A stretch of DNA of 64,000 nucleotides. Source: Cliona cf. orientalis. Its lineage: Eukaryota; Porifera; Demospongiae; Clionaida; Clionaidae. Numbering within the stretch: the stretch's first letter is position 1; every line of letters begins with the position of its first letter. The translations under genes and the position numbers were made by a program. Location of the stretch: NCBI GenBank assembly GCA_963930775.1, contig OZ005703.1, positions 2,294,001 through 2,358,000 of the forward strand, in the 5' to 3' direction. Under the pieces are notes generated by a model. That model ran no database searches. It saw only the letters and a list, made by a program, of their open reading frames with translations, and had not been told where the DNA came from. Below, piece after piece: positions 23,238 through 34,660 of this stretch.

Positions 23238-25185
23238 CTCCCCCAGCATGCTTTCCTTGTCTTTAATTCTTGTATGCAGAGGATGCTTGTCACGGTCACG
23301 TGACTCTATCAAAAGCGAATTGCACAATTTTGCTATACCACAAAGACTGCATTTGTTGCCCTCAAGAAAGATTTTGTGCATTGTAGCTAGCCGAATTGCC
23401 CGAGGTCCTGAGGCCAAAAAAAAGAAAGAATCAAGCACCTTTTCTGTAGATGGGCTGCTGTTTGTCCTTATGGTATTTTCCTGGGACCTGCGAGCAGTGT
23501 AGGCCTTCGTTAAACGCCTCGATAGATCCAGCATCAGGCAAAGAGTGCTAATGACGACCTAAAGTACAGTGCATTTTTATAAAGCAAGCGCAGCAAGGGC
23601 CAAATAAGCTCAGGTAAATTCAATCTGCATACGATTCGGGCTGTTATTAAAGCTCGCAGACCCAAGTGCTTGAGTTTGCCGAGTTCGTTTCAAGTTTGTA
23701 CCACACGCTACTCATTTCACCCTGGTTTTATTCCATATTTGAAATTCACAGAATTTTATTAGAAAGCTACATGTACACATGTAGCTTTCATTCATTTCAA
23801 AATTTACTTTTCCATGTCCATTTGATATAAATTATTCCGTATGCTTTATCCGAGTTCTGCCCACACTAGTCGGAAGTAGTCGTTCCGAACTACTCGGCAT
23901 TTTTTGCTGCCACTAAAGCCAACGCACAGACTAAAAGTGTAGTTTGGCTATTGACCAACATCACTCAAATCATCCTGGGCAGAACCCTATTCTATGTATA
24001 AGGCTATCAATAGAATATTATGTGGAGCCCACATAATACCTTATCCTAAACCAGCGGTCATTTATGGCTGCATACATAAGTGCTTACTGTGCTATCATTT
24101 ACATGTATGTAGGTATCTATGCTGAATTATCATTCAAGATGCACATGCTAATGACAATTGTGAAGGACTGAGTCTCTACAACAGTGGTTGAAGAAAAGAA
24201 GAGCACAGGACGGGGGCAGAAGACTGAATTTAAAGAGCTGGAGGTAAACAATTATGATAACATGTTTTTGTATGCATTTTTGAACAGCTGGAGTATACAT
24301 AATATTATCAGGTAGCTTATGATTGGGAACCTTAGTTTGAATTCCCGTAAATGCATTCGGTCCTAAATAGGTTAAAACTATCAAATTATATTTATCTGTC
24401 GGTCCATCCGTCAGTAACAGAGGGCCAGCGGAAGCAATTTGACCTCGAGGCACACCATGCTGGATCTCGGGCTACTGAGTGTTTTAAGTGAGAACTCGGC
24501 GTTCTCTGTGAATGGAAATTGTAGCACTGGCTACAGGTGGGAACGATAGCTACTGAACGGACCGTTCAAAGGTTAAGCAACACTGGGCACTTACATGTAG
24601 CGGCCTGCAGTTAGCTAGGCAGCTGGATTCATGTGGTGGAGTCGTCGTCGTGGAGGTAGCTGATTCTGTGATTGGCTTCTTGTGTTCAGATGTCGGAGAG
24701 GGAGACGGCAAGCGAACTAACAAGTTTCTTGGCCAGTTGATTAATTAGAATACAGGATGTCAAAATGTGCATGTTTATGGAAGGTTTTAGTAATTTGGCT
24801 ATGTGCTCCAAGTGGGTGTCAGAACGTGCATGCACAACAGAATGTTTGAGAGTTAACTTGGCCAGTCCTTGCTAGCAATGCTGATAACCTTTGCTCTCAG
24901 AAACAACATGTACGATTAGATTAGAGTCATCTACAAGCATCAGTTCACTTTCTCCCGTGCACACTACAAACCTAATAAACCAGGGAGTGGGCGAGCGAAG
25001 CGAGCCCCACTCCTTGTACGCTAAAACAAATTAACTAGCGTCTATATATTATATAATATAATATTTGAGCAAAGATACATGTAATTATGATGCTCTGGTA
25101 CTTGTATATTCACAGGAAGACGACTTTTTTTGTGGAAGAGTGAAAAGTTGGCAAAGAGAACGAACCTCAGATCAAAAGAGGAAAG
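23238..25185. other. Outer-element interior, weak coding-like traces
   Basis: A plus-strand stretch at about 23370-23500 reads ILCIVASRIARGPEAKKKKE and on to a stop, which looks protein-like, but no family is recognised. 24540-24660 shares words with 5S rRNA (GGTTAAGCAACACTGGGC). The rest is featureless. Confidence 0.3.
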
Positions 25186-25204
25186 AAGTACACTGTTAAA
25201 AAAT

Positions 25205-25400
25205 GGGTACTCTGGTAATACCTTTAGGGGACTTCAAGGTTATGTTTATCGTTAATACCCTAGGGGTATTACATTCAATACCCTTTGGGGTATGGCTCTA
25301 GTACCCTTGGGGTATTGGCTCAAGTACGGTGGAGTACTACTCCAAGTACTCTAGAGGTACTGTCACAGACATGTGTGGTACTACAGCAGGTATCACAGTT
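25205..25400. repeat. Left subterminal repeats of the inner element
   Basis: At least six partly palindromic words of the type AATACCCTAGGGGTATTAC, AATACCCTTTGGGGTAT and AGTACCCTTGGGGTATTGG. They recur in complement near the right end (33945-34105). Subterminal repeats in CACTA elements are usually protein-binding sites needed for transposition; here that is inferred from position and repetition. Confidence 0.7.
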
Positions 25401-25613
25401 GACGAAGGCATAGGGTTGCTAGCATTGATCCAGTGCATGCATGTGCAAATTGTTGTAATTACAGTTTCCACCATGTCATAAATACGACCTCATAACTCAC
25501 ACAAATCATAATCATTAACAAAAAGAAAACTGCATAAACAATTAACTAAAAAAAAAAAAAAACTAAAAATGAGATATGAAGTGTTTTACAATGTGAGATG
25601 CTCTGAAAAGTGT

Positions 25614-28285
25614 TCACAGTTTATCAAGACAACTAATAAACCGAACTAAAGCTTGTGGAATAACATCTTCCTTGATGGAGTACACAAAATGCTGAATAAA
25701 AGTCAGTGGTATGTTCAGTGGCTGGGGATACTGTATATCAAATACATAATAGCATGCCATCATCCCTCCCATAGCTTTGAAAAAGCTACTTGTCGTAAGT
25801 ACCACTAGCCGCTCTGTTACAACAAAGAAAGAGAGTGAATCATCGTTTGCTACTACTCCTACATAGGGATGATTGAGCTTGACTTTCTCGGCCTCTTTTT
25901 CGACATCAGAAGGATTCTACATGCATGATAAAGAAAATTAGTGGTTAATCACATGTATACCTTCAAAACACATGCACGCACGCACATGTACACAAAGAGA
26001 ATGGAGGAAGAGAGAGGATACACACGTTCACACAAAGATACCAATGCTACAGAGACTTGTTGGTAGTTGCTTAGCAACCAAAGTTTTTATAGGCAATTTG
26101 CCGGCTATGGGAAGGGGTTGGGTCATCATAAAGTAGGCCAATGATGAGCAGAGGTCAACTACCAACAAATAGTTATCTGCCAGTAATCGGGGTGCATTCG
26201 ACCATGCATCTTATGCACCACAATTACTGGCAGATAACTATTATATAGAGAAGACAGAATAATATAGAGTGGAACCCCTCTACAAGGAATTAGGACACCA
26301 CCCATGGTCTCAGCTACATAGGGACATGTACAACAGTACCCCTGAAATGAGGACATAATCAGAACACACACACATAATATACAGACTTACACTCGCACAG
26401 AAAGACAACACACATTCACACAGAGGGGAAGCAGGCAAGTTACTAGAGCAAAATTAAAGAGCGGTGCTGTGGTTAAACATCAATGGGTGTTTGTGGTTTT
26501 AAAAACTACATTTAATGCAAAATGACATTTTGAGAGTGGTGCTGCGCCGCTCTACTGCTCTTTAATGACTTCCCTGGGGTAATAGAGAGGATACACACAC
26601 ATACAGAGAGAGAGGGAGAGGAGAGTGAGAGACACACATAGTGAAATAGACAGATAGTGACACACCAACTCACATCAAAATGGTGTATCAGGGTACACTT
26701 TGCCTTGGGTGCAAGTAGACTACAAAGGTACTTCAGTCCGTACACTTGTTCCAGCTGACGCACTGCATATTATGTAAAATAAATCCTTGCAGAATACAGG
26801 TACACCAATGAACACTTACATGGATTTTCATCAGGATAAAGTAGCTTCTCTTCCTCGTGTTGGTCTCTCAGTTTTTGCAAATTTGACTTGCTTGCCTCAA
26901 TCTCCACCTTTCGGTTAATTTTTTCGAGGAATTTTCTCCATGTACTCTTGATTTCGTCATCCTCTGGCAAGTCACTTTTCACAACTGCTGCAAGCTCCTT
27001 TTGAAGCTAAATTAAGGAAAGTAATTAATTAATAATTATGTGTGTACAAGTGTAGTCATGTCTAATTCCACAACGTACGTAAGACGATGACATCTTCAAT
27101 GGCGGGAAATTCTCTAATATCTCGTCAACAGTAGGTCCCTCTTTATCGATCCAATTACGCCGAATTGCCAATGTGTCCTTCATGAAAGTCTTGACACGAG
27201 TCTTGCTTGGTTTGTCTTTCGCACACTCTTCTTGAAGAGATTTGATATCGTGTTTGTACTTCTCCTCTTCTTCTTCAGTGACTTCAATATCGCTGTTCTT
27301 AAACAATTTCCTCTTCTTTGATGGCTGGTTAGGTGGAGGCTCTACATTGTTCTCCTTGTCCTCATCCCTTGTCCTTTTTTGTTTGACTGATGGAGGGGCT
27401 CTAAGATTTTTGAATTTCCTCCTGATTTGTTGCTTCCAGGAACCCTATATGAACGTAATAGATAGAGTTGGAGCAAGAGAGAAAGATATTTAGTTAGAAT
27501 TTATGTATTATAGCAAGTATCAAACCATAATGAAGTATAGTTGCTCCAGTTCTCTCACTCACTTACCCTTTCCCGTACACACACACAGACACCAGCGAGA
27601 CATGCAACACATGCACCCAATTTCATACACAAGCACACACATGCATACACACATAAATCAGAAGCTAAGTGAGTGTAACTTACATAGCCATTTCCAGTTG
27701 AGTCTTTCAGAACAGGATATTTCTGGACCAGTTGTTGAGAGACTGCTGTGTACTCCTCCCTACTGGGGTATTCGCACATCTGGTACCACGGGACACAAAC
27801 TGCACTAACAATTTCACACCTCAGACCGTCGGTGATCTCCCCTTTGTCCAAGCGCTCCATAGTAGCTCTAGAAAACCGATCTGGAATCTTGAAATGGCCC
27901 TGGGCCAATGAGTTCTCACAACTACCAACTGGTTGTAGTGCACTGAGAACAGCCTATAAAAATTATAAAATTTTAAATATACGCAAATGCATGAAATATT
28001 GTGTTGAGTCAATACTAAACATACATTAAACATTATTGGTCTTACGTGGTGAGGTTGAGGTTGTGGTTTCAGGCTTGCAACAATTCTTTGTACAGCTTTT
28101 CTATCGCCGAACAATGAAAACAACTCTTTAAGATCGTCGTCAGAGAGGTCAACAAAAGTCTTCCCATTAACACGATTGGTTTCTATTGCAGTTATGATGT
28201 CCTCAGTAATGTCCTCTTTGTCTTCCAACCAACTGCAGAGTTCTGTCACTGTGAACTTCTGGACCTCGTCGTAATTTTCCACCAT
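25614..28285 (-). CDS. SAM-domain protein encoded by the inner transposon (six exons)
   Basis: Minus-strand exons: 28285-28046, 27953-27684, 27444-27079, 27006-26820, 26762-26674 and 25916-25614. All junctions are GT-AG and frames join without a stop, giving 484 residues. A SAM (sterile alpha motif) domain lies at residues 5-75 (TVTELCSWLEDKEDI ... FVDLSDDDLKELFSLFGDR). Residues about 105-185 contain PWYQMCEYPSREEY, then KYPVLKDSTGNGYGSWKQQI. A Lys-rich stretch with PSKKRKLFKN (possible nuclear signal) and an acidic coiled region follow. The last exon is hydrophobic (FFKAMGGMMACYYVFDIQYP). The layout resembles proteins annotated as SAMD3-like in fish and invertebrates. SAM domains mediate protein-protein or RNA contacts. 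Its position inside the element, divergent from the transposase, suggests an accessory or regulatory transposition protein. That function is inference. Confidence 0.85.
25917..26673 (-). other. Intron 5 of the SAM gene, with two repeat relics
   Basis: It holds a foldback at 26058-26245 (TGGTAGTTGCTTAGCAACCA ... GTTATCTGCCAGTAAT and complement), related to 35799-35920. It also holds a pogo-like fragment near 26268 (GTGGAACCCCTCTACAA). Confidence 0.55.
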
Positions 28286-28289
28286 GACT

Positions 28290-28895
28290 CCAAATTAAAC
28301 TGGGCCAACAAATACAAGTGCATGTAAAGAATAGAATTTTCCTAGAAGCACAACTAATGCTATCTATCAGAAAGAGTAAGAAACTTATAGTAAGTTTATT
28401 GCCTGTGGATTGACACCTTCGTTTAGTATTAAAATTACATTATTATTGTGGTCAACTTACATCCACTTCTTGGTTGTTCAGTGAGGGACGCGAGTACGCA
28501 CAAGACTTCAGCCAACGCCAGAAAGAGAGAGAGAGAGCAGGGATAGTACAGCGTCTTCACACAGACAGGGATCGAGGATCAGCTTTCTCACGTACACTTC
28601 AATGTGTCAGAAAATCACATGCACAACTACCACGTACGTGCAACGTATATCGCGTACGCGCGCGCATGCTCGAATGCTGAGCAACTGGACAAAGGGGGTT
28701 AAACTTGAAATTGTTATTTGAGTGGACTCTGCTGCTCTGGCTGGACTCGACTGCTTCCCCACGCCGCCACACTACCAGTAAGCAAGCTTTTAGCGAAATT
28801 ATAAGCTTAGCGTCTATTAAATATTATATGCTATAAATTATACATCATTGTGATATTAGACATATGAAACTCAGAGGTTTGTACATATCTATAGG
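28290..28895. promoter_or_regulatory. Shared divergent promoter region of the two transposon genes
   Basis: About 600 bp between the SAM start (28285) and the transposase start (28900). It contains a GC-rich CpG-containing stretch at 28610-28660 (ACGTACGTGCAACG, CGCGTACGCGCGCGC). The short frame at 28474-28680 is probably 5' UTR or promoter rather than a gene. Co-expression of both genes from this spacer is an inference from layout. Confidence 0.45.
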
Positions 28896-28899
28896 TGTG

Positions 28900-31800
28900 A
28901 TGTCTTTGGTTTGTCCTTTGTGTGGTGATGTTACTGTGTCTAAGCATTCACAGCTGATGACACACATCAGGCTCTTACACGCTGATGATCCAAATTTCAT
29001 GATTCAGTGCAATCGTCAAGGATGCAAGAGAACGTTTCGGAAATTTACTGTTTACAGAAACCACATTTATGCTTTTCATGGTACAGCACTAGATGAAACC
29101 ACCGTAACACCACATTCATGTGGAGAAACAAGTGGAAATCCTCCAGTAACAGGTATTATGACAACCATTGATTATTGCTCACCTGGTAAGGCCAAAATAA
29201 GGACAATAATGTTCAAGATAGGCGGCCACCTACATGCCTGGCATAAATAATATGATACAATCCCTATACTCATGTACATTCTGTTGCACGATGCAAGTTG
29301 TGTCTAATGAGTGCTATAGTTGTTCTCAATCTGTTATTCAGGTGATTCTTTTGACCAAGATGTGAGTGAGATGCGTGTGTCTATCACAGAAGAGGATCTA
29401 AAGGTGGCAGCAGCTAAATGGATTTTGAAAAACCGAGAAGGCCATCGGATTCCTAATTCTGTTATGGAATCCATTGTATCTGGAGCTAAGTTTCTGTATG
29501 AAACAGCCTTGTCAGAAATTCAGCGACAAGTAGTGGACGAGATGAAGGAAGCTAATATTACTCCCGACACCATTACTTCTGTATCACGTGTGTTTGATGG
29601 TGAAACGCAATACACGAATGTATTCAGGGGATTAGAAACAACTTACCGCCAAAATTCATTCATCAAAGACCACTTCAGATTTGTTGTATGTCTCTAATTC
29701 AATGAAGTGATACGTATAGTGTTCTTCCTAGCATACATGTTCCTAAGACATGTTGGCCCAACAAGCCTTCAGTACAGAGTTTCCTTTGATGTGGGAATAG
29801 GGATGATCCATGTGCTTTGTTGTGGTCAGAGGCGCGCAAGGCTCCACCAAACTATTCCCTCCCGTCATGCCTCGAGTTTAGCTTGGGGAGAACAATGCAT
29901 AATATACCACTCAATAATAATTATTAATAATTATCATTGTCTATCTGTCTTCCTTCCATGTACATGTAGGAACCTGTTCAAATACTCCTTGGTACCCGTT
30001 CCCAACCCGGCAAATTTCTCAAGGATGGTAGTGTCAAACAAACCAGGGACACCATGATCTATATTCCCATTCTTGAAACCATCCAAAACCTTCTCCAGAA
30101 TGAAACAGTGCTGTCAGAGGTATACTATGCAGTTTGTCATTTGTGTCTATGGGCTTCTTGTATGCATAAGTGCAATGTACATGTACATGCATGTACTTTA
30201 CATATATGTGTGTACACACATGTACATGTGCGATAACAACCATGTGTCCACACATTCATTATATAGATTGAGAGGGGGCATCGTACGAGAGAACCTGACG
30301 TGTTGAAGGATTTCTGTGATGGCCATGTTTTGAACAACCACAGACTTTTCTCAGTACACAGGAATGGATTGCAGATTCTATTCTACTTCGATGACATAGA
30401 GGTGGTTAATAATCTGGGCTCACACAAAAAAGTCCACAAATTGGGTAAGTTGTAGTATAGAGCACTGACAACATTAAACTAAGTATTCATATGCACAGGT
30501 GTGTTTTATTTCACACTGGGAAATCTCAGACCCAAATACCGTTCACGATATTCAAGCATCTATCTGTTGGCAATTTGCAAGAGAAAGCTGATTACTTTGT
30601 ATTCAATGTCTACTGTTCTTCAACCAATCGTTGAAGATATCAAGATTCTTGTAAGTTACACATGTACATGTATGTATTATTTAATTTGTGTACTTTAACA
30701 TGTGTATTAGGAAAAAGGCCATGTCTTTGAGGTTAGAGGTGAAACGAAGACCTACTATGGCACAATTGCTGTTGTTTCAGCTGACAACCCAGCTAGTAAT
30801 GGTCTTGGTGGGTTCAAAGAAAGCGTTTCTGCCACCAGATATTGTCGACAGTGTATGGTAGACAGTCAGACTGCCCAGCAGGAGGTATGATCACTTGATA
30901 CACAGTAGTGTTTTGATTTTCATTGATCCATTTTTGTGTGTACATGTAGTTTGATGAAGGTTCTCTTATTTTGCGTACCCGAGAGCAGCACCTTCGTAAC
31001 TGTGACACCCTTGAAGCTGACACCGTCTCACCTGCAGCAACCTCAACACAGCTGGGAATCAACTACCGCTCAATTTTATTCGAGCTGCAACACTTCGAAG
31101 TGGACGTGTTGGTTCCGGACGTGATGCACGATATACTGGAAGGGACGCTTCAGTTTGAAGCCAAGCTTGTACTTCAGCATATTGTGAGGGAGAGGTATGT
31201 TTCCTATTCCATGTTTGCAGGTGCTCTTGCTCGACTAGAGCTAGGGTACATGGAGGCTGACAATAAACCTTCTGAGATCTCTTCAGCTACTCTCTCATCA
31301 TCGGATAAGACTCTGGGACAAAAAGGTTGGGAATTCATTTCATTGTGTACATGTATGTGCCTTATTTAATCATACATACACCCTTACCATTTTAATATAG
31401 CTGCTCAAATGTGGTTGTTGGGAAGAGTGATCCCATACCTGATTGGAGAAAATATTCCAGAAGGAGATATCAACTGGAAGAATTACTTGCAACTGTTGGA
31501 GATTGTAGATCTGCTGATGGCCCCAGAGATATCTGAGGACGAAGTTGGTGAACTAACTCTACTTATCTCTCAACATCACACCCTATTCTCTCACCTATAC
31601 ACGAGTTCTAGTGTGCTACCTAAGCACCATTTTATGGTGCATATGCCCCGTCTTATCCTCAAGTAAGTGTGTGTGTGTGTACATGTATTTGTGCATGTGT
31701 GTACATGTACGTGTGTTTGTGTGTGTATTCATGTTGTGTAAGTGTATATAATACGTTTGTGTGTGTACGTGTATATATACAGTAGAACCCCAGTTATCCA

Positions 31801-32860
31801 ACCTGCTTGAGACCAAGCCTAAATGCCAGATATGTGAATCGACCATTACATACATGTACTTCTAGTATACGTGATGCAATCGGAAAGTGTGCATTAATTA
31901 GAAGTTTAGATGTACGTGTATAGAGGCGCAGATAAGAGGTTCCACTGTACATGTATGTGTGTGCATGTACAATATGTCATGTGTTTGTGTACATATGTAT
32001 GTGTATGTGTTTATGTGGTGTATGTGTGTACATGTGTGCATGTGCTTGTGTTTATGTGTGGTGTGTGTGTAAGTACTAGTGCTTTTAGACTATTACACGT
32101 ATATACATGTAAATGCACAGGTATGGTCCACTTGTCCGTCAATGGACGATGCGATATGAAGCCAAGCACAACCATCTGAAGAAGCTTGCTCAAAATATTG
32201 GCAACTTTATCAATATTGCATTGACCTTGGCAACAAGACACCAGTACTGGCAGTGCTACAAGTGGCAAGAAGGAGATTTGATGGACGATGAGCCAGAAGT
32301 TGGGCCAGGTATTATATTAAACATTTTTTGTACCATGTACAAGATTCATCTTCATGCATCTGCATCACTATTTAAGGCACTGTGTTTTATCCTTTCAAAT
32401 ATGCAGGTGATTTGGTTGCCACTAGGGATAGGCCACTGGAGCTAGCCACTATTGATACCTGCTACAAGTGAGTTTTTCTTTGCACTATGTGAACCTGGTA
32501 ATAATGATCGTTTTGTTCGGTTATAGGACCAAATGGGCTATAAAAGATGGTATTCTGTACAAGGTTCCCTGTGTGCTTACTGTTGAGATAGACAATGACT
32601 ACCCACAGTTTGGAAGAGTAGAGAGTATATACATTGCAGATAGTAACTCTGTGTATTTTCTCCTGAGAATGATGAACACAGTGAACTTCAACATTCACCG
32701 GCACTTCTACGTAGTTGAACTTTCCTCTAACTATAAAACAGTGCGTTTTACTGATTTGTACTATGTCTTCCCCCTACACCTGAGAAGATCTGTGGTCAAC
32801 AATTCCAGTTGTTTATGTGTCATTCCAAAACATCACATTCTGCACTCATTACAGCAATAA
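28900..32860 (+). CDS. CACTA/En-Spm-type transposase with N-terminal C2H2 fingers (eleven exons, intact)
   Basis: Exons: 28900-29152, 29342-29685, 29970-30119, 30267-30444, 30499-30650, 30711-30884, 30950-31325, 31401-31662, 32121-32308, 32407-32467 and 32527-32860. All introns are GT-AG, all phases fit, and no stop interrupts 823 codons. Two C2H2 zinc fingers lie at residues 5-27 and 37-60. Candidate catalytic acids are D291/D292 in ILFYFDDIEVVNNLG and D384 in VVSADNPASNGLGGF, the latter followed by CRQC, as in the Transposase_21 pattern. Conserved PDVMHDILEG follows at about 473-482, and E643 lies in MRYEAKHNH. The enzyme would cut and paste the element by binding its ends. An in-frame ATG at 28864 would add 12 residues; 28900 was chosen because the sequence before it resembles a splice acceptor. 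The exon 7 donor (GTTGGG) is weak. Confidence 0.9.
31778..31949. mobile_element. Small pogo/Tc1-like inverted-repeat element in transposase intron 8
   Basis: Begins TACAGTAGAACCCCAGTTAT and ends GATAAGAGGTTCCACTGTA. The ends are imperfect complements with TA at both borders. The end sequence resembles pogo-type MITEs of invertebrates. It lies between exons 8 (to 31662) and 9 (from 32121), so the transposase reading frame is unaffected. Confidence 0.6.
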
Positions 32861-32965
32861 TAATTATTTTTAATAACATGCAGTGTAAGCTGAATTTATA
32901 ATTATTATTAATAAATTATTGGAGTAATGATTGTGAATTTGCCTTATTGTACTTTGGTCTCTGCA

Positions 32966-33892
32966 TGGTGATCATGTACTGTTTCAGGTGTAGAATCAGG
33001 ATAACAAGTCCATTTTCATGGGCGATCAAGTGTTCTTGTGTATGAGGGGTGACGTACATGGGTTACGACACTTGCTGAATTCGGTACAATTTCAACACGT
33101 GTTTTGGTCTCACCAGCTCATACTTATGTTTCTGCTAACCAGACCTGGTGATCATGTACTGTTTCAGGTGTAGAATCAGGATAACAAGTCCATTTTCATG
33201 GGCGATCAACTGTTCTTGTGCATGACAGGTGACATACATGGGTTACGACACTTGCTGAATTCGGTACAATTTCAACACGTGTTTTGGTCTCACCAGCTCA
33301 TACTTATGTTTCTGCTAACCAGACCTGGTGATCATGTACTGTTTCAGGTGTAGAATCAGGATAACAAGTCCATTTTCATGGGCGATCAAGTGTTCTTGTG
33401 CATGACAGGTGACGTACATGGGTTACGACACTTGCTGAATTCGGTACAATTTCAACACGTGTTTTGGTCTCACCAGCTCATACTTATGTTTCTGCTAACC
33501 AGATCTGGTGATCATGTACTGTTTCAGGTGTAGAATCAGGATAACAAGTCCATTTTCATGGGCGATCAACTGTTCTTGTGCATGACAGGTGACGTACATG
33601 GGTTACGACACTTGCTGAATTCGGTACAATTTCAACACGTGTTTTGGTCTCACCAGCTCATACTTATGTTTCTGCTAACCAGACCTGGTGATCATGTACT
33701 GTTTCAGGTGTAGAATCAGGATAACAAGTCCATTTTTATGGGCGATCAAGTGTTCTTGTGCATGACGGGTGACGTACATGGGTTACGACACTTGCTGAAT
33801 CTGGTACAATTTCAACACGTGTTTTGGTCTCGTCAGCTCATACTTTTGTTTCTGTCAACCAGGCATGGTGATCATGTACTGTTTCAGGTGTA
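32966..33892. repeat. 180-bp tandem array inside the inner transposon
   Basis: Five full units with an exact 180-bp period, starting TGGTGATCATGTACTGTTTC, plus 27 bases of a sixth. Units differ at only a few positions (GATCAAG or GATCAAC, GACAGGTGACGTAC variants). The last unit is most diverged. It lies between the transposase stop and the right end. It is probably a recent amplification, and could be a binding-site or spacer array. Confidence 0.95.
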
Positions 33893-33944
33893 TACAATCA
33901 GCTAGGATATTAATTTTAGTGCTTGTATGAGCCACATTATGGGT

Positions 33945-34110
33945 ATTGCTAGAGTACTCTAGGGGTTTTAAAAGTGCTAATTGGAGATCATTAGAACATT
34001 CAGGGTATTGCAGCGTGCTTAGGGTACCATGGTAATACCCCCACGATACTGTCACAATACCCCTACTGTTTTGTCCATAGATTGGGGTATTGACACAGTA
34101 CCCCAATTTT
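33945..34110. repeat. Right subterminal repeats of the inner element
   Basis: Words such as GGGTATTGC, AGGGTATTGCAGCG, GGTAATACCCCC, CAATACCCCT and GGGGTATTGACACAGTAC mirror those at 25205-25400. Confidence 0.65.
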
Positions 34111-34199
34111 AACAGTGTAAAGACACAATTCTAGTGATCATGACTGTACGTAAGATGTACATGTGCCAACATTTCATTTATATTACGACTTTCCAAAAT

Positions 34200-34660
34200 T
34201 AAGTTACCATTAAAACTCTTTTTAGATTTGTACTGCTGCTTAATGCTCTTTTTTTTTGGCTGATTTCAGATTGATTTTAATGTATTCTTCAAACAATATT
34301 AAGTTCATTTTGAGATAGCAACAAATTTAAGACTGTAGATTAAGATTGTTTTCATATAATATTAAGACAGACGCATGCTCATGAACACACATTTTAAGAC
34401 TTGTTTCAGACACAATTAAGTTCATTGCAAGACATTTTTAAGATCTCTACTGGTTTCTACACATTATTCTTTTCATACCCCACTCAGACCCTTTTCTGCT
34501 TCTTTAAGATCCTTAAGGTGTCCAATTTTAAGACCATTTTCCGACCGTTTTTTGGTCGTTTTAAAACCCTTTCTTGACCCTTTTCAAGGACTTTTCATGT
34601 TCTGTGGTCCTATTCTTTCCCAGACAAATTATTAAGACTCTTCTCATGGCATTTTAAGAC
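34200..34660. repeat. Right subterminal repeats of the outer CACTA element
   Basis: Repeated TTTTAAGAC/TTAAGAT words, complementary in sense to the left cluster at 22260-22710. They end just before the CTCCAGTAGTG terminus. Confidence 0.7.

Follow-up and report, generated by a model that had tools for sequence, protein, structure and literature searches.

In plants, CACTA elements depend on two proteins; the workings of their animal counterparts have been little studied. A 64,000-nucleotide stretch of the sponge Cliona cf. orientalis genome (hereafter the window; C15:2294001-2358000) raises two questions: whether it carries a complete two-gene CACTA transposon, and what the second gene does. 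Based on searches of the genome (217 Mb in 149 contigs), we found that window positions 25191-34117 (+) are a complete CACTA (En/Spm) element of 8,927 bp, designated copy W of family 1, in which a transposase gene and a partner gene lie head-to-head. The reading that we favor, with a probability of about 60%, is that this complete transposon pairs a predicted DDE transposase with a partner that acts as a TnpA-type helper binding motifs near the element ends.

Element boundaries, copies, and families

The 5'-CAC..GTG-3' termini are present, with CACTGTTAAA found at both ends in four families and also opening the reference copies of families 2, 3, and 4. The recognisable termini noted in an earlier sequence-only reading of this DNA were placed at exactly 25191 and 34117 (CACTG...CAGTG), with the terminal inverted repeat (TIR) CACTGTTAAAA. 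All nine copies with both ends read have a 2-bp target-site duplication (TSD), which is TA in seven (W, E, and C among them), TG in B, and AA in D. When the W flanks were joined with one TA kept, 28 of the 32 matches in the genome crossed the insertion junction, 27 of these over at least 200 bases; the other four were the two W flanks themselves and two partial matches. Three of the sites were read directly and are gap-free through the junction, with one TA retained. These 28 matches indicate that W lies inside a dispersed repeat and that the 2-bp duplication is real. The repeat provides the flanks at 25071-25190 and 34120-34239, and the 28 further places match it across the insertion point.

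An initial DNA search found five further places, namely copy E on C9 and the copies A to D of a second family. W, E, B, C, and D are each 8.7-9.9 kb long, and the partner is present in each of the six long copies of families 1 and 2. With gaps left uncounted, an alignment of ~9,895 bases shows 8, 5, and 5 substitutions among B, C, and D, so the two genes have recently moved as one unit. Such near-identical copies with both genes suggest recent activity, and the element has probably been active recently. Two further copies, F (C1:4.06 Mb) and H (C4:4.89 Mb), are relics of the right end that lack the partner. The claim of a complete two-gene CACTA element in the sequence-only reading was thus borne out by the ends, the 2-bp TSDs, the joined-flank matches, and the further copies, together with the Pfam matches and the predicted fold of relatives given below.

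Family 3 has a full-length element of 9,750 bp on C6 (L033/L034, C6:5.943-5.957 Mb), and its proteins are ~31% (partner, 146/466 residues) and ~40% (transposase) identical to those of W. A truncated family 3 copy at C1:25.46 Mb (L027/L035; 3,595 bp at 99.9%) has the left end and the partner but lacks the transposase.

Two smaller features of copy W were also observed. The right arm of family 1 contains five tandem copies of a 180-bp repeat, and copy E and the right-end relic on C4 have them too; a blastn comparison of this repeat with the family 2 copies gave no match. Partner intron 5 contains a ~188-bp insert (26057-26244) with a 30-bp inverted repeat (93%). It is absent at that position in copy E, has relatives elsewhere (e.g., L007:8073-8253, L009:107-292, and L010:3570-3684), and by its looks is a separate small mobile element.

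Gene structure, conservation, and selection

The full-length splicing of 823 and 484 codons with every intron GT-AG, as claimed previously, was reproduced when both genes were rebuilt from the DNA. The transposase gene (28900-32860, +) has 11 exons, is stop-free, and has 10 of 10 GT-AG introns; the partner gene (28285-25614, -) has six exons and five of five GT-AG introns (Table 1). Both genes are open in copy E, which is identical to W at 807 of 823 transposase and 471 of 482 aligned partner residues. Between W and family 2, 586/818 transposase residues (72%) and 282/473 partner residues (59%) are identical, and eight of the 11 exons of the transposase gene and three of the six in the partner gene agree in length. 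In family 2 (B, C, and D), the transposase is open over 12 exons, one additional intron splitting exon 7 of the window gene. The family 2 partner is open with the exon 1/2 junction set by eye, whereas the aligner's own placement gave one stop. Because copy E has both genes open and family 2 matches, the gene models are beyond chance.

The ratio of nonsynonymous to synonymous substitution rates (dN/dS) between W and E was 0.31 for the partner and 0.21 for the transposase by the Nei-Gojobori method (0.57 and 0.33 by YN00), and a rough count of synonymous and nonsynonymous changes gave Fisher p values of 0.013 (partner) and 2e-5 (transposase). Between W and C, which are too diverged for dS, the partner differs at 31, 18, and 62% of codon positions 1, 2, and 3, respectively, and the transposase at 23, 15, and 55%. 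Judging from these codon comparisons, the partner is under purifying selection, and both genes look functional.

The transposase has the DDE residues with C(2)C and H(3-4)H between the second D and the E, as expected for CACTA/EnSpm. Among 15 aligned sequences, D384, C404, C407, H619, and H623 are invariant and D291 is found in at least 90%; the corresponding D290 of the relative P0005 is likewise conserved among 31 relatives. E643, within MR[YF]E[AG]KH, is kept by most of the 15 rows, outside the invariant and 90% lists. The catalytic triad proposed by the sequence-only reading (D292, D384, and E643) therefore stands for its last two members, but the first acid is D291, position 292 being variable (D, E, or K). 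The RNase H-like fold that had been anticipated was found in the model of a transposase relative, which is predicted to be RAG1-like and in which the acids sit on strand 1, behind strand 4, and within the final helix; this model ends in a BAH-like fold, a chromatin-reader type. The Pfam family Transposase_21 had no match in the window transposase at E up to 1; with the limit set at E 0.1, it matched six of 31 relatives (lowest E 8.1e-5; the P0005 match is under the curated cut-off). The named transposase relatives are animal proteins, including those of the sponges Dysidea avara (39%) and Amphimedon (32%) and of fishes, a hydrozoan, a sea cucumber, and a rotifer.

From N- to C-terminus, the partner has a SAM-like region, a basic middle part, and ~100 conserved residues that match no Pfam family. 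Its basic stretch SKKRKLF presumably resembles a nuclear signal. Protein database searches with the partner returned P0001 (JGI, 73%) as the sole match, and weak matches to SAM chains were seen in the PDB (E 0.77). At E up to 1, Pfam lists three families for the partner, and the TnpA/TNP1-type families given in PMC2613891 (pfam03017 and pfam03004) are not among them.

Table 1. Features of copy W, in window coordinates.
Feature	Position	Strand	Remarks
Left TSD (TA)	25189..25190		Joined-flank matches across junction
Complete CACTA element, family 1 copy W	25191..34117	+	CACTG...CAGTG ends; copy E on C9 aligns 25188 to 34119
Left TIR (CACTGTTAAAA)	25191..25201	+	
Left subterminal array	25191..25390		7 GGGTA/TACCC, 5 of them GGGTAT
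Partner exon 6, with stop	25614..25916	-	Conserved C-terminal region; matched elsewhere, e.g., 59% family 2, 29% C6
Partner exon 5	26674..26762	-	89 nt, also in family 2
Partner exon 4	26820..27006	-	187 nt, also in family 2
Partner exon 3	27079..27444	-	Basic stretch SKKRKLF
Partner exon 2	27684..27953	-	
Partner exon 1	28046..28285	-	SAM-like region
Shared spacer	28286..28899		614 bp between the two start codons
Transposase exon 1	28900..29152	+	C2H2-like fingers; zf-C2H2 E 0.037, under cut-off
Transposase exon 2	29342..29685	+	
Transposase exon 3	29970..30119	+	
Transposase exon 4	30267..30444	+	Catalytic D291
Transposase exon 5	30499..30650	+	
Transposase exon 6	30711..30884	+	D384, C404, C407
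Transposase exon 7	30950..31325	+	D474-x-M-H
Transposase exon 8	31401..31662	+	H619, H623
Transposase exon 9	32121..32308	+	E643
Transposase exon 10	32407..32467	+	
Transposase exon 11, with stop	32527..32860	+	C-terminal region BAH-like in model of a relative
Five tandem copies of 180-bp repeat	32966..33892		Right arm
Right subterminal array	33918..34117		7 GGGTA/TACCC, 5 of them GGGTAT
Right TIR	34107..34117	-	
Right TSD (TA)	34118..34119		Joined-flank matches across junction

Co-occurrence of the two genes

For the partner, 88 of 119 candidates in the genome were scored, and the resulting 74 exon matches were grouped by hand into 26 loci (C1:30.089 and C1:30.099 Mb counted as one). Two more loci came from upstream of distant transposases, such that at least 28 partner loci exist, which is a lower bound. 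At 20 of the 28 found, a transposase is present with the matched pieces within ~4 kb, and all 20 pairs are head-to-head. Six of these belong to families 1 and 2, and the others were located at C4:7.07, C5:3.15, C1:23.74, C1:35.80, C1:30.66 (these five paired by their coordinates), C1:20.28, C1:22.64, C1:29.72, C6:5.95, C11:3.20 (by DNA similarity to the C6 element), C1:30.67, C6:1.91, C1:15.50, and C1:14.93 Mb. At C1:12.89 Mb, a correctly oriented transposase lies 13 kb from the partner; the truncated family 3 copy at C1:25.46 Mb is a further locus, and two are C-terminal fragments with stops (C12:4.69 and C15:4.87 Mb). The transposase search scored 55 of 409 candidates, so partnerless transposases are undercounted. 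It found transposases 36-42% identical to that of W with uninterrupted frames of 475-653 codons (C1:15504214, C1:1013662, C1:14933942, C7:6390322, C5:3602981, and C3:4255858), and a partner was found upstream of both distant transposases checked (C1:15.50 and C1:14.93 Mb).

To the question of whether the two genes always occur together, raised in the sequence-only reading, the answer is thus mostly yes; at four partner loci (C1:13.74, C4:4.39, C1:30.10, and C1:19.73 Mb), the 4.7-8.5 kb read upstream contain no transposase. These four loci would fit a host gene captured by chance beside transposases. That explanation appears very improbable and is already disfavoured, given the pairing at 20 of 28 loci, always head-to-head, and the position of the partner inside the termini in the four families with ends read. 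The pattern named in the sequence-only reading as refuting it, SAM-gene homologues standing alone at fixed host loci, does not prevail in this genome.

In the rotifer Rotaria magnacalcarata, the gene models P0031 and P0032 have a partial CACTA transposase that continues into a homologue of the partner middle region. The match to the partner scored 32.9 bits for the whole protein; with a four-sequence profile, the tail reached 38.6 bits, whereas no shuffle out of 1,000 did better than E 0.63. The hhalign probability was 93%, and the C-terminal region alone scored only 4.0 bits. By these gene models, both genes appear side by side in another phylum, although the join may be an annotation artefact.

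Subterminal motifs and the proposed role of the partner

The motif arrays at the two ends of W (Table 1) stand out from the interior, where GGGTA has a mean of 0.25 and a maximum of 2 per 200-bp window (397 windows). Counted on either strand in the terminal 200 bp, GGGTAT occurs 5+5 times in W and 6+6 times in C, compared with at most one (W) or two (C) in any inner window. In families 3 and 4 (for family 4, ends only), the terminal 200 bp have GGGTGT 2+5 and 5+5 times and zero GGGTA. The motif is thus GGGTAT in two families and GGGTGT in two, with both ends concordant while the terminus CACTGTTAAA stays constant. Such subterminal repeat clusters are a property of CACTA/EnSpm elements.

For plant CACTA elements, the view in PMC2613891 is that the transposases, which are conserved, act on the likewise conserved termini, whereas non-homologous proteins bind the variable subterminal repeats; TnpA and TnpD are both required (PMC1636069). 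From this division of labor, the partner is by analogy the best candidate for the motif reader here, with the transposase zinc fingers as the main alternative. The partner may thus be a TnpA-like end-binding factor unrelated in sequence to TnpA. The suggestion of an accessory factor like TnpA with an unrelated domain, made from the sequence alone, remains plausible and is strengthened by the clustered subterminal motifs.

In the mechanism that we propose, the partner would bind the repeated motifs beside both ends and unite the two ends, allowing cut-and-paste by the transposase with D291, D384, and E643 as its likely catalytic acids. The partner, rather than the transposase zinc fingers, would read the motif. 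Its SAM-like region may join partner molecules; SAM domains often self-associate. The shared spacer could drive both genes.

In addition to the four loci above, several observations weigh against this proposal. The SAM assignment is weak: the sequence-only reading had called the partner a SAM-domain protein, and while a divergent intact gene was confirmed, its SAM matches are under the curated Pfam cut-offs (SAM_KIDINS220, E 0.0088, 16.3 bits vs 27; SAM_1, E 0.067, 14 bits vs 23), and the family 3 partner gave SAM_1 only at E 0.21. The Pfam scan of the partner recognised no DNA-binding domain (only MADF_DNA_bdg at E 0.16), and the AlphaFold model of its relative P0001 is of low confidence (predicted local distance difference test score 42.9). 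The Rotaria pair is on one strand rather than head-to-head, only the partner middle matches well, and its transposase part spans 65% of the query. Copy C has two GGGTG at its left end in addition to its GGGTAT copies. Partner identity drops alongside transposase identity (59/72% in family 2 and ~31/40% in family 3), and this parallel drop makes the motif change assignable to neither protein. Finally, the motif could be read by the transposase itself, through the C2H2-like fingers at its N-terminus.

These fingers lead to another explanation, which we consider quite unlikely: motif reading at the ends falls to the transposase, while the partner is an accessory, cargo-like or fading, that has simply been inherited. 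The right-end relic at C1:4.06 Mb, which keeps transposase exons without the partner, agrees with this explanation. A fading gene is at odds with the purifying selection on the partner, its retention at ~31% identity in family 3, and its presence in every long copy of families 1 and 2.

Somewhat less unlikely is that the partner works outside the transposition machinery and sustains expression of the element as an anti-silencing or chromatin factor, perhaps via a promoter in the shared spacer. Precedents in the excerpted sources include the TET/JBP genes carried by fungal transposons, which are thought to act against silencing (PMC12730594), and TnpA itself, which also reactivates the methylated Spm promoter (PMC1636069); the BAH-like C-terminal fold of the transposase relative points the same way. 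However, such regulation alone does not explain the matched motif clusters at both ends, though it is compatible with them, and the two roles can coexist, as in TnpA.

Returning to the end-binding helper, a tentative extension, less likely than not, would credit animals with a two-protein CACTA system of their own. In it, an ancient partner family, present in this genome and the rotifer and accompanied by a RAG1-fold, BAH-tailed transposase, would read a family-specific GGGTAT versus GGGTGT code and synapse the ends by SAM assembly, and SAMD3 might be its domesticated descendant. Vertebrate SAMD3, as we presume, has a SAM domain followed by central and C-terminal stretches of similar look over its full length; our partner searches returned P0001 only. 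Should vertebrate relatives of the partner family exist, some unexplained SAM-protein annotations could be transposon genes. With four families that share a terminus and differ at both ends in the motif beside a conserved second gene, end-reading and its change in specificity can be tested by swapping ends and partners.

Comparison with known systems

Membership in Transib/RAG was rejected, since those elements have 5-bp TSDs compared with 2 bp here, and the partner was not RAG2-like by any search run. ProtoRAG is a two-gene transposon too. In the excerpts of the cited papers, Chapaev needs a 3-4 bp TSD (PMC4079192), compared with 2 bp here, and ESTA requires duplication of TA (PMC12730594), compared with TG in B and AA in D; both were rejected on the TSD. 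The predicted catalytic core fold and the C2C/H3H motif are shared with Transib/RAG1 (PMC12730594, in excerpt). As that excerpt also describes, Harbinger (Nuwa) combines a DDE transposase with a separate DNA-binding partner of Myb/SANT type (PMC12730594); it differs from the present element in both the transposase superfamily and the partner.

The animal TRC elements (SmTRC1 of Schistosoma) and Spongebob belong, like this element, to the animal CACTA superfamily with 2-bp TSDs (PMC4298943, PMC1636069), and SmTRC1 has a Transposase_21 domain (PMC1636069). According to the available parts of these papers, SmTRC1 and Spongebob start with CCC, compared with CACTG here, and SmTRC1 makes several proteins by alternative splicing, a separate head-to-head partner not being described there. 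Our searches of the open-licence literature showed no paper linking CACTA or DNA transposons to the SAM domain, SAMD3 (judged by titles and opening abstract lines), or the BAH domain, the one match for CACTA and the SAM domain being on plant miRNA targets; Repbase may hold such families.

Close parallels are En/Spm of maize (TnpA + TnpD) and Tam1 (TNP1 + TNP2), which likewise have CACT-type termini, a DDE transposase (there of Transposase_21 type), clustered subterminal repeats, and two proteins (PMC2613891, PMC1636069). Unlike those elements, which obtain their proteins by alternative splicing of one unit, the element in Cliona has separate head-to-head genes, and its partner lacks a Pfam match to the plant TnpA/TNP1-type families. 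The TSD is 2 bp here, whereas soybean Tgmt* made three bases (PMC2613891). Taken together, the CACTA kind of element is known, and what is new, as far as our searches go, is the partner family, the head-to-head arrangement, and the family-specific subterminal motif.

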